A stretch of DNA of 64,000 bases. Source: Hyphomicrobiales bacterium (lineage in GTDB: Bacteria > Pseudomonadota > Alphaproteobacteria > Rhizobiales > Rhizobiaceae). A model generated the notes under the pieces. That model saw only the letters and a list, made by a program, of their open reading frames with translations. It ran no database searches and was not told the origin of the DNA. Below are positions 2,609 through 46,758 of this stretch, in pieces; the first letter of the stretch is position 1; each line of letters opens with the position of its first letter. Both the position numbers and the translations under genes were made by a program. The DNA is taken from assembly GCA_900473045.1 (NCBI GenBank), contig UCKS01000025.1, positions 62,001-126,000 on the forward strand, read 5' to 3'.

Positions 2609-4129
2609 TTATTCGAACCGGAATGCAATCCGCTTGCCCGTCAGCTTGGCAAGCTGCTGCAGGCGGCCGTCGAGGCGTTCGCCGGCAAACTCCGAATAGG
2701 CGGATGGAACGATGAAGTCGAGATCGAAGTCCGGCGACGCCGATGGACGGATATCGAGGTTGCGCACGACACCGGGCATCGAGGCCGACAGCAGGTAGAC
2801 CACTCTCAACAGACCACCCAGCAGTTTGGCCAATTCCCGCATGCGCGGGGTGGTGATGGTGGCCAGCGGCTCGGTGGCGCCGTCGTCGTTCAGGCCTTCG
2901 TAACGGTAATAGTTGGCAAGGGCGATATAGGCCCGGCCGGCATGGGTGATGCCGGAAAAGGTGCTGTGGGCGATGATGTTGAGCGCCTGCAGGCCGCGAT
3001 AGTCGGGATGGGCGCGCCAGCTGATATCGGCAAGCAGGCAGGCTGCCTGGCGGTAGCGCCCCTCTTCCTCGGTCTCATTGATACCGAAATGCGGCACCAT
3101 CTTGCCGCTCCAGTCGGCAAGCTCGCGGGCATGCTCAGGCGAGCGGGCGCGCAGGATGGCGATTTCACGTGCGGCGGCCAGCAGCGGATCGTGCGCCCGC
3201 ACCGTGTCGGATAGCAGCGAATAGAGATATCCCTCGCGAACGCCGAGCGCCGAGAACGAGATCATCGACGGCTTCATCTGGGCGATGACTTCCTGCAGGG
3301 CAACGGCACCGAACGGCAGTAGAGAGCGGCGGCTTTTCGAAATATGCGCGTAAGCCGGCGATTTGACATCTTTCGGCTCGATCACTTCCGGCAGGAAGGC
3401 CATCGCCTCCTCGAAGGAGATTTCATAGCCCTGCATCATGTGCAGCGGATAATCGCGCAATTCCATATGCAGCTTGGCGATCGAGCGCCAGGTGCCGCCG
3501 ACCGCGTAGAACGTGCGGCCGCCGGCATTCTGCAGCACCTGTGCGCCCTTCAGGTAGCGGCGCACATGGGCGCGGGCCTTGACGACCGATCCTTCGGCAT
3601 GTTCCGACAGACGGATACCGCCAAGCGGCAGGGTGATGCCCTTGCCGACCTTGGTGCCGACGACATCGACAAGCTCCAGCGAGCCGCCACCGAAGTCACC
3701 GACGACCCCATCGGGATCGTGATAGCCACTGATGATCCCGAGTGCGGAGAAATAGGCTTCTTCCTCGCCGGTCAGCACGCGGACTTTCTGACCGAGAATG
3801 ATTTCGGCGCGGCGGATAAAGTCTGGGCCGTTCGAGGCGTCACGCGCAGCGGCCGTCGCCAGCACGAAAACCGTGGAGGCGCGCGCCTGCGTCGACAGCG
3901 CCCGGAACCGGTGCAGCGCCTTCAGCGCCCGCTCGACGCTTTCGGCGTCCATCCGGCCGGTCGCATCGATACCCTTGCCGAGGCCACACATGACCTTCTC
4001 ATTGAACAGAATGGCCGGAGACCGGCTCAGCCCCTCATAGATCACCAGTCGAATCGAGTTCGACCCAATGTCCACGACGGAGACCGGGGCAATACCAGGC
4101 AAACGCCCCTGGGCTTCAGACTCTACCAT
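2609..4129 (-). CDS. ppx: Exopolyphosphatase, Ppx/GppA family
   Basis: Hydrolyses terminal phosphates from inorganic polyphosphate; some family members also act on pppGpp. The 506-residue protein has the ASKHA phosphate-1 loop DIGSNSIRLV at residues 20-29, the acidic motif GEEEAYFSALG at 121-131 and the phosphate-2 loop GDFGGGSLELV at 144-154. The remaining ~200 residues match the usual helical C-terminal part. Length is normal for the family. It follows ppk after 12 bp on the same strand, so polymer synthesis and breakdown are probably co-transcribed. Confidence 0.93.
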   Translation of the reverse strand: MVESEAQGRLPGIAPVSVVDIGSNSIRLVIYEGLSRSPAILFNEKVMCGLGKGIDATGRMDAESVERALKALHRFRALSTQARASTVFVLATAAARDASNGPDFIRRAEIILGQKVRVLTGEEEAYFSALGIISGYHDPDGVVGDFGGGSLELVDVVGTKVGKGITLPLGGIRLSEHAEGSVVKARAHVRRYLKGAQVLQNAGGRTFYAVGGTWRSIAKLHMELRDYPLHMMQGYEISFEEAMAFLPEVIEPKDVKSPAYAHISKSRRSLLPFGAVALQEVIAQMKPSMISFSALGVREGYLYSLLSDTVRAHDPLLAAAREIAILRARSPEHARELADWSGKMVPHFGINETEEEGRYRQAACLLADISWRAHPDYRGLQALNIIAHSTFSGITHAGRAYIALANYYRYEGLNDDGATEPLATITTPRMRELAKLLGGLLRVVYLLSASMPGVVRNLDIRPSASPDFDLDFIVPSAYSEFAGERLDGRLQQLAKLTGKRIAFRFE

Positions 4130-42183: not shown

Positions 42184-43026
42184 TTATCCCAGCTCGAACG
42201 TGGTAATGCCGTAAATCTGCCCGAGCGGCAGGTCCGGCACCGGACCGCGATACATCCGCGCCGTTTCGAATACCGGCTTCAGATTGTAGCGATCGCACAG
42301 CGCGCGGGCTGCGGCGTTCGGCTCGGGAATATCGAGATAGACCTGGCCGCCGCCAACGCTGGTCACCAGCTTGCGGAAAATCAGGTCGGCATTGGTTTCG
42401 CTGTCGGCAAACAGCGGACCGATCTTGTGGCCCTCGCGGCAGGCGCGGATGGTGCCGTAGCCGGCAATTTCGGAATTGCGCAGCAGGGCAAAGCTTTCGC
42501 GCGTCTCCATCGCCTTTAGCCATTCGCGCAAAAAGGCATCGCGCCGGGCCGGATTGAACCGCGCATCATAATCGGCCAGCATCGGCACAAGAACGGGAGA
42601 GACCGAGACCAGTTCGGTGCCGGGCGGCTCGGTGCACTGAACCTCGCCGCCATAGCGGAAGTTGGCATGGGCATAGACGAAGCCCGACTTGCGGTAATTG
42701 TCCTGCTGGGCGACCACGCCATCCAGCCCGACCGTGCGGCCGCCCACCTCCGCCAGTGCCCGTTGCCAGAGTGTTAGACCGATCCCCTGCCCGCGATAAT
42801 CCGGATGCGCCAGGTAGAACCCGAGAAACGCATAGGTCTCGCCGTAGCGCACCAGCGACAGCGCCGCGGCCATGGTGCCATCCTCCTCGGCAATCCAGTA
42901 GCCGTCCGGATCTGCTGCCCAGAAGGCCGGCGCATCGTCGAGACCGGGGTTCCAGCCCTCTGTGGCCGCCCAGTCGATCAGGACATCGAGATCGGCGCGG
43001 CTGGCTTTTCGGATCATCGGGGGCAT
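42184..43026 (-). CDS. GNAT family N-acetyltransferase
   Basis: A 280-residue protein. The N-terminal ~140 residues form a GNAT domain with the acetyl-CoA loop in LAHPDYRGQGIGLTLWQRAL. The extra C-terminal domain of similar size resembles the second domain of YitH/HolE-type acetyltransferases. The substrate is unknown. AGGAG is 5 bases before the ATG at 43026. It is convergent with the small membrane protein gene. Confidence 0.83.
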   Translation of the reverse strand: MPPMIRKASRADLDVLIDWAATEGWNPGLDDAPAFWAADPDGYWIAEEDGTMAAALSLVRYGETYAFLGFYLAHPDYRGQGIGLTLWQRALAEVGGRTVGLDGVVAQQDNYRKSGFVYAHANFRYGGEVQCTEPPGTELVSVSPVLVPMLADYDARFNPARRDAFLREWLKAMETRESFALLRNSEIAGYGTIRACREGHKIGPLFADSETNADLIFRKLVTSVGGGQVYLDIPEPNAAARALCDRYNLKPVFETARMYRGPVPDLPLGQIYGITTFELG

Positions 43027-43203
43027 GGAGACTCCTGTTTGAAAATGCAGACTACCCAAATAGCGCAGCTTGGCTATTGTCCACCAGCCGCAATGACGAT
43101 TGTCGGCAGGTCATCGTTGACAGGCAGTGACAGGCGCTTGCCCGGGATTGTCTTTCTGATACAAAAGCCCACCGTAAAAGTCATACAAATCGAGCGACAC
43201 ACC

Positions 43204-44130
43204 ATGAGCCCCATCCATATTTCGATCGTCGGCGTCGGCAAGATCGTCCGCGACCAGCATCTTCCTTCCATCGCCAAGAATGCGGATTACAAGCTGATCG
43301 CCGCCGCCAGCCGCCATGGCGTCGTCGATGGCATCGATAATTTCAAGTCGATCGAAGCCATGCTCGACGCGGTTCCGGCCATCGATGCCGTGTCGCTCTG
43401 CATGCCGCCGCAGTTCCGCTATGCTGCTGCCCGCACGGCGCTTGAGGCCGGCAAGCACGTCTTCCTCGAAAAGCCGCCGGGCGCGACGCTGAGCGAAGTC
43501 GCCGATCTCCAGGCGCTGGCTGACGAAAAGGGCCTGTCGCTGTTTGCCAGCTGGCATTCACGCTATGCGCCCGCCGTCGAAGCCGCAAAGGCTTTTCTCG
43601 CCTCGACGAAGATCAACGACGTCAAGGTGATCTGGAAGGAAGACGTGCGCCACTGGCATCCGAACCAGGACTGGATCTGGGCTGCCGGCGGCCTCGGCGT
43701 CTTCGATCCCGGCATCAACGCCCTGTCGATTGTCACACATATCCTGCCGAACCCGCTGTTCATCACTTCGGCAACGCTGGAATTCCCGGAAAACCGCGAT
43801 GCGCCGATCGCCGCCTCGATCGTCTTCAGCGATGCCAACAACCTGCCGGTTTCGGCCGAATTCGACTGGCGCCAGACCGGCCACCAGAGCTGGGACATCG
43901 TCGCCGAGACAGATGCCGGGATGATGGTGCTGGCCGAAGGCGGCGCCAAGCTTTCGATCGACGGCAAACTGGTGCATGACGAGCCGGAACAGGAATACCC
44001 GGCCCTCTACGCCCGCTTCGCAGAGATCATCAAGGCCAAGACTTCGGACGTCGATCTGGCGCCGCTGCGTCACGTGGCCGATGCCTTCATGCTCGGACGG
44101 CGCAAGTTCGTGGATGCGTTCTTCGATTGA
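43204..44130 (+). CDS. D-galactose 1-dehydrogenase (Gfo/Idh/MocA family)
   Basis: A 308-residue NAD(P)-dependent oxidoreductase. It has the nucleotide site ISIVGVGKIVRDQHLPSI, the EKPPG motif near residue 94 and the active-site region WKEDVRHWHPNQDWIW with GLGVFDPGINALSI after it. The whole chain resembles Pseudomonas-type galactose 1-dehydrogenase, which oxidises D-galactose (and often L-arabinose) to the lactone in the non-phosphorylating DeLey-Doudoroff route. The partner genes of that route are not in this window. Confidence 0.82.
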   Translation: MSPIHISIVGVGKIVRDQHLPSIAKNADYKLIAAASRHGVVDGIDNFKSIEAMLDAVPAIDAVSLCMPPQFRYAAARTALEAGKHVFLEKPPGATLSEVADLQALADEKGLSLFASWHSRYAPAVEAAKAFLASTKINDVKVIWKEDVRHWHPNQDWIWAAGGLGVFDPGINALSIVTHILPNPLFITSATLEFPENRDAPIAASIVFSDANNLPVSAEFDWRQTGHQSWDIVAETDAGMMVLAEGGAKLSIDGKLVHDEPEQEYPALYARFAEIIKAKTSDVDLAPLRHVADAFMLGRRKFVDAFFD

Positions 44131-44181: not shown

Positions 44182-44238
44182 GCTGCTGACAAAACTTGAA
44201 TTAGATTGTCTGATGAAAGCGATACCCCACTTTCCGTC

Positions 44239-44286
44239 ATCCTCGCCCTCGTGGCGGGGATCCAGTGATCCGACGTCTGTCGGATC
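44239..44286. repeat. Two adjacent short palindromes
   Basis: The first stem is ATCCTCGCC/GGCGGGGAT around CTCGT (44239-44262, imperfect). The second is GATCCGAC/GTCGGATC with a GTCT loop (44267-44286), followed by an AT-rich tract. The first resembles the short interspersed palindromes common between alphaproteobacterial genes. They fill part of the ~260 bp between the dehydrogenase and the next small gene, in which I see no other feature. Confidence 0.5.
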
Positions 44287-44392
44287 AAAAGATTATTTTA
44301 TCTCAATAACTTGAGCCATCTAGATTTCCGTCACAAGCACAGAAATGACAAGATGAGGCTCTTGAAAAAAACAAAAAATGATCGGTGAGTGC

Positions 44393-44731
44393 GTGAAAAA
44401 CATCCAGATGATAGATGGAGCAGCCAACGCCACGTTCAGCGTTTTTCAGGTGACCAACGACGAATTTTCGTTGATCTTCCCTTCTCCGGGGCAGGATATG
44501 GAGATTGTAGAAGATTTCATCGGCAGGCTCGGCAAGAAGGCGGCCGGGATGATTTTGGAACCCATTTGGGAACGCCCAATTTTAAAGCGAGATGCAAACG
44601 GCATTCACGGCACACTGTTCTATGACAATAATAACCGACGTGAACATTTCCCAGCGACAAAACGCGAAGTCGATTGGGACAGATGTAACCTGAACGCAGC
44701 TCAGCAGCATCTGTTTTCACTAAACAGATAG
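44393..44731 (+). CDS. Hypothetical protein
   Basis: A ~112-residue soluble protein with a Phe-rich acidic start (NATFSVFQVTNDEFSLIFPS) and the segment GIHGTLFYDNNNRREHFPAT. No family is recognised. The GTG at 44393 is favoured because GGTGAG sits 5 bases before it; an ATG at 44378 has no ribosome site nearby. The base composition is poorer in GC than the flanking genes, so recent acquisition is possible. It ends 17 bp before the holC-tail remnant. Confidence 0.55.
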   Translation: MKNIQMIDGAANATFSVFQVTNDEFSLIFPSPGQDMEIVEDFIGRLGKKAAGMILEPIWERPILKRDANGIHGTLFYDNNNRREHFPATKREVDWDRCNLNAAQQHLFSLNR

Positions 44732-44748: not shown

Positions 44749-44776
44749 TTAAACCTTCTTCACCCAGCGCCCATCC
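44749..44776 (-). pseudogene. Displaced 3' end of holC (direct repeat copy 1)
   Basis: Read on the minus strand, these bases encode PDGRWVKKV then a stop. The core at 44754-44776 is an exact 23-base copy of 46314-46336, the end of intact holC (QDGRWVKKA). The two copies lie in the same orientation 1,560 bp apart. This is the pattern left when an element inserts at the 3' end of a gene and restores the reading frame. Confidence 0.7.
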
Positions 44777-44860
44777 GGTATCCTTCGCACTTGTCGTCGA
44801 ATACTGATTTTTCGACAATGGCACGGCGTCCGCTTTCGTCCCTTTGCGGTCAATCCGCAG

Positions 44861-45358
44861 CTAACTCTGAAATCCAGAACTTCGTTCATATATGAAGCGC
44901 GTGTATGATAATTGACATTCAACTCGCTCTGAAGTGGAAATCGAGAACTCATCTTCAGGTAACAATGGGAAAAAGCGGTCGCCACCGAATGTAGTGTCCA
45001 GCACAGTCAGATGAATTCGTTTGGCGAGCGGAAGGAAGAGTTCATAAATCTCCTGACCACCGCCGACAGTTATCTCTGAACCCGGCAATTCCGACGCAAC
45101 TGAAAGAGCTTCATCGAGCGATGTAGCCAAGAGAGCACCAGTAGTCGGAGAAGCGAACGAACGAGATAGCACGATACAATGCCGCCCCGACAACGGACGG
45201 GGTAGGGAGAGATAAGTCATGCGCCCCATAATAAGGGCATTCCCCATTGTCAGTTCCCTGAAAAAATTCTGCTCGCCGGGGATATGCCATGGAATATCGT
45301 TGCCTCTGCCGATGACACGGCCCGCATCCATAGCTGCGATCAGAACAATGGGTTTCAT
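44861..45358 (-). CDS. Dihydrofolate reductase, DfrA-like
   Basis: A 165-residue NADPH-dependent DHFR, which makes tetrahydrofolate. Seen motifs are VLIAAMDAGRVIGRGNDIPW at the N-terminus, IPGEQNFFREL with the active-site acid E29, MGRMTYLSL, and the cofactor loop ITVGGGQEIYELFLP near residues 96-110. The GEQ segment recalls mobile trimethoprim-tolerant DfrA enzymes more than typical chromosomal FolA. No thyA lies next to it. GAAGG precedes the ATG at 45358; an open frame 31 codons upstream is discounted. It lies within the DNA bounded by the two holC-end repeats, 118 bp behind the HNH gene. Confidence 0.85.
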   Translation of the reverse strand: MKPIVLIAAMDAGRVIGRGNDIPWHIPGEQNFFRELTMGNALIMGRMTYLSLPRPLSGRHCIVLSRSFASPTTGALLATSLDEALSVASELPGSEITVGGGQEIYELFLPLAKRIHLTVLDTTFGGDRFFPLLPEDEFSISTSERVECQLSYTRFIYERSSGFQS

Positions 45359-45476
45359 GCCTGCCTTCTGCTGACTGGTTATGACACTACTCGGCTGATC
45401 CCGTAATTGGGTGGATAGTAGTGGGATCGGAGAGGATCGCAATGACCGCAATTGGGCGCAAACCTGCCGTTGCCCG

Positions 45477-45833
45477 TTAAGGCTTGCGCCCCCTGCCTCG
45501 ACCCGACGACTGTCGTGATTCCTTCGCCGAATCCGAAAAACCTGGAGGCTTATTTTTTACCCAGGCAACGAATGTTTGCACCGCAGGGTCTTGAAGAATG
45601 GCCTCGATCGTGGAGAACTTCTTGGCGAGTTGGGCATCAGTAAAAATCGCATGTATCTGGTCGTGGCAGATGCGGTGCAGGCAAACGGTTTTCTTGCCGC
45701 CTTTGCTCTTGGGGACGAGATGATGTTCGTCTTGCTGATCATCCGGGATCACGCGCTCGCACATTGGACACAGCACCAGCTCCGGCACCGCCACGTCCCA
45801 TGAAGCCAATTCATCTCTGTTTTTGCGGGCCAT
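45477..45833 (-). CDS. Small HNH endonuclease
   Basis: A 118-residue protein with a compact HNH/treble-clef nuclease. C22 and C25 (CPMC) pair with a later Cys set in CLHRICHDQIH, and the catalytic His is in DEHHLVPKSKGG near residue 37. A basic Ser/Arg/Gly tail follows. Similar short HNH proteins are widespread in Proteobacteria, with unknown targets. It is upstream of the DHFR on the same strand, inside the repeat-bounded segment. Confidence 0.82.
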   Translation of the reverse strand: MARKNRDELASWDVAVPELVLCPMCERVIPDDQQDEHHLVPKSKGGKKTVCLHRICHDQIHAIFTDAQLAKKFSTIEAILQDPAVQTFVAWVKNKPPGFSDSAKESRQSSGRGRGRKP

Positions 45834-45955
45834 CGGTCCATCATCCTAAGCGCTGCCGGCCTTGCTTCCATTTTGCTTGGATCGATGCAGGCCCTTACCC
45901 GCAGGTAACGCGTCTCATCAGGCGGAGCAATGCTGTTCTAAATCAAAGTGGGGCC

Positions 45956-46303
45956 ATGGATGGAAGCAATTCTGGACCACCTGATCTGAGCAGCATGATG
46001 ATCGCCACTATTCGCACCAGTGCCACTTCCCGATATTCGCGACCAAGAGATTGGCAGTCTGGGTGTACCTTTTGCATTTGTTCAGTTTTCGACCACTGGT
46101 GGACGCAGGCTGAGTGTATGGCGACGAATTTGTTCGCCGATAGAAATGCCTTTAAGGCCAATCAACTTCACGATTATTTTGGCGCACAGCTGACGTTGTG
46201 TCACAAACGGTGGCCGCATAAATTCGAATTTCACAACCGTTTCCTGCAGCAACACGCTTCCACATCATGGAGTGATCGTTGGCTTTCTTCGATTGATGCG
46301 TGA
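45956..46303 (+). CDS. Possible unassigned protein inside repeat-bounded segment
   Basis: An open frame of ~115 residues, rich in Trp, His and Cys (WQSGCTFCICSVFDHWW; HKFEFHNRFLQQHA). GGGG lies just before the ATG. The frame continues upstream to 45764, but that part covers the HNH gene start and is discounted. Composition is unusual and nothing is recognised; it may be non-coding. It fills most of the ~475 bp between the HNH gene and holC, where I see no other gene. Confidence 0.25.
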   Translation: MDGSNSGPPDLSSMMIATIRTSATSRYSRPRDWQSGCTFCICSVFDHWWTQAECMATNLFADRNAFKANQLHDYFGAQLTLCHKRWPHKFEFHNRFLQQHASTSWSDRWLSSIDA

Positions 46304-46308
46304 AAGCA

Positions 46309-46758
46309 TCACGCCTTCTTCACCCAGCGCCCATCCTGATTCTGCTGCCAGTAGGTCAGCGCATGCCCCTCCCCCTTCAACACCTTCCAGTGCGCCCGCG
46401 CGCCTTCCAGCTGGGACTGATCATAGCCGTCGAACATGAACACCACCCGCTCGTAAGTCCCAACCGGCGGCGGCGCGGCGCCGTCGATGATGAAGCGGAC
46501 GGTGGCACTGTTGGCGTTGCCGTCACCGGCGGTCAGCAGGATCGGCTGGTCATCGGAAAACTCCGTCGCATCGGTGCCGTGCGGCAAAAAGCTGTCGTCG
46601 CGATAGGTCCAGAGATGGTTGTCGAGCATGTCGCGGCGCTCGTCGGTCATCGTCTGGACGACGACGCGCCAGCCGCGCTCGACACAGCGGTCAAGCAGCG
46701 GCGGCAGCGCGTCTTCGAGCTTGGATTCCGTCAGGTGGTAGAACAGGATTTCGGTCAC
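46309..46758 (-). CDS. holC: DNA polymerase III subunit chi
   Basis: A 149-residue clamp-loader accessory subunit that links the replicase to single-strand binding protein. The start EILFYHLTESKLEDALPPLL, the middle WRVVVQTMTDERRDMLDNHL and VVFMFDG near the end are the HolC pattern. The last residues GRWVKKA are encoded by the right copy of the 23-bp repeat. It starts 8 bp after the pepA stop, probably as one operon. Confidence 0.9.
   Translation of the reverse strand: MTEILFYHLTESKLEDALPPLLDRCVERGWRVVVQTMTDERRDMLDNHLWTYRDDSFLPHGTDATEFSDDQPILLTAGDGNANSATVRFIIDGAAPPPVGTYERVVFMFDGYDQSQLEGARAHWKVLKGEGHALTYWQQNQDGRWVKKA
46314..46336 (+). repeat. 23-bp direct repeat, copy 2 (inside holC 3' end)
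   Basis: Exact match to 44754-44776. This copy ends the intact holC gene. With copy 1 it frames 1,537 bp holding the DHFR, the HNH gene and the unassigned stretch. It behaves as an attachment-site candidate, although no integrase gene is present. Confidence 0.75.

Follow-up and report, generated by a model that had tools for sequence, protein, structure and literature searches.

How the end of a gene can come to be duplicated some distance from a copy of that gene that remains intact is the question raised by the window, the whole 64,000-nucleotide stretch of DNA analysed here. Exact duplicates of gene ends beside foreign cargo are easily mistaken for attachment sites, and the initial annotation of this DNA had drawn attention to one at holC, the gene for the chi subunit of DNA polymerase III. 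It claimed that an exact, same-orientation 23-bp duplicate of the holC end lies 1,560 bp away and that this copy still reads DGRWVKK before a stop, and both statements are borne out. The two copies (44754-44776 and 46314-46336) are 100% identical; at up to three mismatches the pattern has two sites in the 64-kb window, against none in any of 100 dinucleotide shuffles, and across the whole 6.78-Mb assembly it is confined to those same two sites. With its own stop codon the remnant (44749-44776) reads DGRWVKKV and a stop, against DGRWVKKA and a stop in holC. The duplicate is probably the scar of two stacked versions of a variable gap, in whichever direction the stacking occurred. Stacking by recombination, a generally known process, is most likely, and a new mobile element is not favoured.

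The anomalous region is larger than the 1,560 bp between the copies, reaching from 44130, where a GFO-family gene ends, to the stop of holC at 46309, and the two genes that border it are convergent, holC on the minus strand and the GFO gene on the plus strand. Read from the holC side, the region contains segment L, a 220-bp stretch, an HNH gene, a DHFR gene, segment R, the holC remnant, an open reading frame on the opposite strand (ORF117), and a repeat of about 165 bp. With both borders, the features are as follows.

46309..46758, minus strand: intact holC (DNA polymerase III chi; PF04364, 4.1e-35; NCBIfam NF004347 above cut-off), whose 3' end serves as the reference for the repeat (46314-46336)
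46180..46308, no strand: gap segment L, which follows holC immediately and has related sequence in genomes G014, G007, and G006
45960..46179, no strand: 220-bp stretch, by sequence match 91% identical to contig C111 of G002 (L184), overlapping the start of a 158-aa ORF there
45477..45833, minus strand: small HNH protein, 118 aa, HlpB-like below cut-off (HNH_5, 6.8e-5, below the Pfam cut-off)
44861..45358, minus strand: accessory DHFR, 165 aa (PF00186, 2.4e-40)
44788..44855, no strand: start of gap segment R (46-49-bp matches at 78-82% identity to G006, G007, and G014)
44772..44787, no strand: putative illegitimate junction between R and the holC tail, with GATG possibly shared at 44772-44775 (from the alignment with G014)
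44749..44776, minus strand: holC 3'-end remnant, in which sequence comparison shows 23 bp equal to holC (44754-44776), the final bases and stop codon being its own
44378..44731, plus strand: ORF117, 117 aa (precomputed PF26665 on relatives)
44182..44349, no strand: intergenic repeat of about 165 bp, found by sequence search in many copies in the window's own genome and in many genomes of the genus
42805..44130, plus strand: GFO_IDH_MocA-family oxidoreductase gene (GFO), the other conserved border of the gap (listed ORF, profile match, relatives)

Matches in relatives suggest that the true start of GFO is nearer 43200 than the listed 42805. The gap has a G+C content of 51%; in the adjoining 500-bp windows the fraction is mostly 0.58-0.67, falling to 0.53-0.56 around 48.0-48.7 kb. 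The cargo had been described as a DfrA-like DHFR, a small HNH protein, and about 475 bp of odd sequence. The first of these is a DHFR, but "DfrA-like" is too strong, as its best NCBIfam model, DfrA12/A21, yields 145 bits against a cut-off of 330. Its nearest named relatives are the DHFRs of Rhizobium tibeticum (85%) and Ensifer sp. M14 (81%), and a second DHFR in the same genome, on contig C47, is 40% identical to it. The HNH assignment corresponds to a match that falls short of the Pfam cut-off. As for the odd sequence, it consists mainly of 130 bp related to other species at this same site and of the 220 bp that are 91% identical to a sequence elsewhere in G002.

Relatives of the HNH protein occur in 19 of 150 other genomes, within the genus mostly away from holC (L185 on contig C3 of G015, at 92% identity; L136; L187; L189), so that HNH seems mobile on its own; in G014 the HNH gene adjoins holC, with 79% DNA identity to the window over 478 columns. 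ORF117 has no relatives in 150 other genomes (its own genome being the one of 151), and Pfam scans in this analysis reported no PF26665 in ORF117 itself. A protein collection holds 464 relatives of ORF117, mostly at 60-69% identity among the 120 listed, where the organism names include Sphingomonas, Bradyrhizobium, and Aminobacter. The intergenic repeat may belong to a rhizobial mosaic or palindromic repeat family.

Between holC and GFO lies a chromosomal hotspot, its variable content enclosed by conserved flanks. A holC match is present in 97 of 101 genomes, the window's own counted. Across 26 genomes of the genus, again counting its own, the holC-GFO gap varies from 64 to 3,488 bp and the cargo changes with it; 18 of these gaps exceed 400 bp and 8 are short, including gaps of 64-67 bp in G019, G023, and G013 and of 182 and 153 bp in G010 and G025. 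In a comparison of 15 loci anchored by ORFs of the window (for holC, an antisense ORF), the gap spans 51-3,474 bp in the 14 measurable loci, and six other nearby junctions are nearly constant over 14-15 loci (168-274 bp, 559-627 bp, and four at -20 to +6 bp). Among 80 named loci, at least 14 of which apparently represent the same genomes as the genus set, GFO was found in 71, with gaps of 36-234 bp in the loci titled Ensifer or Sinorhizobium.

The cargo carried in relatives' gaps is varied, comprising barstar, Imm50-like (below cut-off), DUF4279, DUF695, DUF2442, ParE/ParD, and TetR as well as AraC-type, isochorismatase, metallo-beta-lactamase-fold, DUF1254, solute-binding, and Tle1-like phospholipase genes. 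In the gap of G009, one ORF (L037, 2017-3663) has a T6SS Tle1-like phospholipase domain (PF09994, 9e-82). Of the 110 ORFs of at least 70 aa in the 26 gaps, overlapping ORFs counted, 33 were scanned and none belonged to an integrase or transposase family, in agreement with the initial annotation, which had reported no integrase and had looked to relatives for empty sites; short, single-copy sites do exist there.

Several relatives have peculiarities of their own at these loci. In G014 (L025, L039, L072), pepA and GFO match piecewise in different frames, reflecting sequencing errors or decay. Contig C74 of G023 (L186, L190) gives matches at mirror-image coordinates on opposite strands and thus seems to be a reverse complement of itself, which probably reflects an artefact of assembly. 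In G005 (L036), the last ~130 nt of GFO and a hairpin are duplicated about 3,138-3,317 after the holC stop, in copies 98% identical; considered as a mirror scar, this duplicate was rejected because the GFO end and its hairpin have simply been duplicated locally, in tandem.

Segments L and R relate the window to the gaps of particular species. The sequence preceding the remnant starts and finishes with short stretches (71-82% identity) common to the gap of G006, G007, and G014. L matches the sequence after holC at 71.5% over 144 columns in G014, 71% over 100 in G007, and 86% over 35 bp in G006, and R matches the GFO-side end of all three gaps over the 46-49 bp listed above; these short matches support the view that L and R are part of a gap version found in these three genomes. 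Beyond L and R, G006 and G007 have no cargo in common with the window, and G014 has HNH in addition. A 160-bp R query matched 6 of the 26 genomes, at the holC-GFO gap in the window, G006, G007, and G014 and weakly in G020 and G002, where, as elsewhere in the window's own genome, the matches are just 20-25 bp. The R of G006, G007, and G014 runs on as far as GFO, but that of the window is cut short by the holC remnant, a difference that, over matches of 46-49 bp, argues for a non-homologous join at that border. The alignment of the window with G014 extends to a GATG that both share where the remnant starts; this possible microhomology is seen in one distant alignment to a genome with broken pepA and GFO frames. 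L and R were also considered as the conserved termini of an element and rejected as such, since R runs to GFO in the three relatives and, bar the 20-25-bp matches, is found only at this gap.

These observations can be brought together in a model in which related species would exchange whole versions of the holC-GFO gap by recombination, with two such versions now standing in tandem in the window. The version on the holC side, consisting of L, a gene fragment, HNH, DHFR, and R, would be joined within R to the terminal 28 nt of a different holC, and that holC's own gap, with ORF117 and the repeat, would follow and lead into GFO. Incoming DNA would have undergone a homologous crossover at one end, most simply in holC, and its other end would have been joined illegitimately, perhaps at a few shared bases, leaving the displaced holC end as the duplicate. 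In the favoured direction, the newcomer would be the part from L to R. Double homologous exchange can account for turnover of the gap; the duplicate scar requires one border to be homologous and the other illegitimate. The crossover in holC, the illegitimate join with microhomology, and the direction are steps that we infer within this model. The identities of the holC tail point to no particular donor and no breakpoint was placed in holC, and neither an intact gap with the right half of the window (ORF117) nor one with its exact left half was present in the genomes examined.

The model rests on two scars, the second of which is in G001. Among 29 gaps, 26 from the genus and 3 from other genera, a holC-end duplicate occurs in the window and in G001, so that 2 of the 26 genus genomes have the repeat and 24 do not. 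In G001 the order is holC, a barstar gene, a holC-end remnant of about 93 nt, an Imm50-like gene, and GFO, which bears out the expectation, raised in the initial annotation, of other cargo between two copies. From 59 nt before the stop of the remnant into GFO, G001 is 91.5% identical to G020 and 90.8% identical to G011, in which the matching stretch is contiguous and runs from within the sole intact holC into GFO; in G001, therefore, an added barstar segment is followed by an entire gap of a different type. The remnant is 84% identical to the holC tail of G001 itself over 94 nt. In a search of 121 genomes, the barstar turned up in G001 and, at 49%, in a single genome from another family. G001 is thus an independent instance of stacking, in which the latter half corresponds to a gap version that two other species carry intact, and the remnants begin at different points, -28 in the window and about -93 in G001, marking two events.

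Whether gap versions have moved between lineages can be judged from trees of the flanking genes. Approximately unbiased (AU) tests reject a single clade for the Imm50 carriers (p 1e-28 on pepA, 3e-37 on GFO), for the ParDE carriers (7e-7 and 9e-8), for G006, G007, and G014 (2e-4 and 0.010), and for these three together with the window (3e-3 and 1e-5); for the DUF2442 carriers a single clade is not rejected on pepA (p 0.128), making four of five groups rejected on pepA and four of four on GFO. Several gap versions are therefore incongruent with both flank trees, yet the versions are clustered overall: nine changes on the pepA tree compare with a shuffled mean of 13.4, a value as low being reached in 0 of 200 shuffles, and versions A (short), B, and E each form one pepA clade. 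Well-supported pepA branches force only two changes per scattered version, and pepA and GFO, both of which adjoin the gap, may have recombined themselves.

The same trees bear on the direction of stacking. Possible, though less favoured, is the mirror version of the model, whose probability is counted within that assigned above to stacking in either direction. Here the part from L to R would be the resident, and the remnant, ORF117, and GFO would have been added by a crossover in GFO and an illegitimate join in R, giving the same final structure. All four carriers of L and R (G006, G007, G014, and the window) lie within one 9-species pepA clade (99/99), so that L and R may be old there, having descended within the clade with later losses, and the lineage of the window may already have carried them; the remnant, moreover, is about as near to the holC ends of several species as to the local one. 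The rejection of these carriers as one clade on both flanks speaks against such residence, as does the position of the window, which groups with G024 on GFO (97/88) and loosely with G024, G010, and G025 on pepA (82/73). The GFO-side stretch of the window likewise resembles G010 and G025, a match that is partly the dispersed repeat.

Stacking could also be part of a larger pattern. It is conceivable, if doubtful, that in this genus the holC-GFO gap acts as a permanent site of accumulation for small protective and conflict genes, amounting to a recombinase-free cassette array. New genes would then be added ahead of older ones by one-sided recombination, always anchored at holC, and the barstar, Imm50-like, DUF4279, ParDE, Tle1-like phospholipase, and accessory DHFR genes would be its cargo.

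A quite different origin would have the 3' end of holC serve as the attachment site of an integrase-type element or gene cassette, the gene end being restored on insertion and the integrase acting in trans. Duplication of a gene's 3' end while holC stays intact, cargo without its own recombinase, and a second example with other cargo in G001 all fit such an origin, which is nonetheless improbable. Remnants that start at -28 and at about -93 have no common attachment core, the copies in G001 have diverged to 84% over 94 nt, and the codons of the putative core vary between species. The 33 gap ORFs scanned lack integrase and transposase families, and only 2 of the 26 genus genomes have the repeat although 18 have gaps above 400 bp. 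Synonymous-site conservation of the holC tail gave no clear signal in 25 of the 26 genomes (G014 left out), and no second holC end was found downstream in any of the 80 named loci (within 8 kb, using the last 150 nt of holC at an ungapped score of at least 15). A search with a related pattern for close pairs of holC ends in 394 genomes of the family returned no other, a weak test in that just 122 matched at all. Of the insertion at the holC 3' end proposed in the initial annotation, what stands is that DNA was added beside holC; a role of holC as a cassette or integrase site is not supported, given the differing starts and the 33 scanned ORFs without an integrase family, and the missing core and the 24 of 26 genus genomes without the repeat speak against the suggested new gene cassette using holC. 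A transposon-like insertion with a 23-bp target-site duplication at the holC end, which the exact direct repeat around a lower-GC segment might suggest, is more improbable still, as no terminal inverted repeats join the two segment ends, no transposase family was found among the gap ORFs scanned, both ends of the segment consist of stretches with relatives in the gaps of other species at this locus, and the repeat in G001 is much longer and diverged.

Within the literature on holC integration sites and genomic islands and on Pararhizobium islands and hotspots, no description of this site was found. Papers on homology-facilitated illegitimate recombination reportedly exist for Acinetobacter, Streptococcus, and Pseudomonas. 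At the present locus, relatives with other gap versions make it possible to interpret the scar as one gap in two versions, stacked, and the holC-GFO gap is a site where such stacking events could be counted.

Oliveira et al. (2017, PMC5635113) describe chromosomal hotspots of horizontal transfer in which mobile elements are lacking and the core genes on either side recombine. The holC-GFO gap resembles these in its variable content between conserved flanks and in that no recombinase was found, and several of its versions are incongruent with both flank trees. The model outlined in that work is a double homologous exchange, which leaves no duplicate, whereas a duplicate is present here. Work on E. 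coli conjugation (PMC3240628) describes one-sided integration in bacteria, where homology is present at a single end, and papers on homology-facilitated illegitimate recombination are cited in an account of small variable segments (PMC2884548). Compared with the process as treated for E. coli (PMC3240628), the one proposed here is one that we infer from scars alone.

The orphan immunity-gene arrays of the Vibrio cholerae T6SS provide a further comparison. A process akin to homology-facilitated illegitimate recombination is proposed for them, in which a conserved upstream stretch is thought to anchor the incoming DNA, a new module is added, and older genes are moved downstream; the 3' end of the older effector gene can be shifted along too (Kirchberger et al. 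2017, PMC5361080). As in those arrays, immunity-type genes (barstar; Imm50-like, below cut-off) are present in relatives' cargo here. Unlike them, the window carries DHFR, HNH, and ORF117, which are not established as immunity genes, and the border genes are holC and GFO in place of a T6SS effector cluster (PMC5361080). Read as a stack, the locus would illustrate how genes can be gained in nature by one-sided addition at a housekeeping locus that is not part of a secretion cluster.
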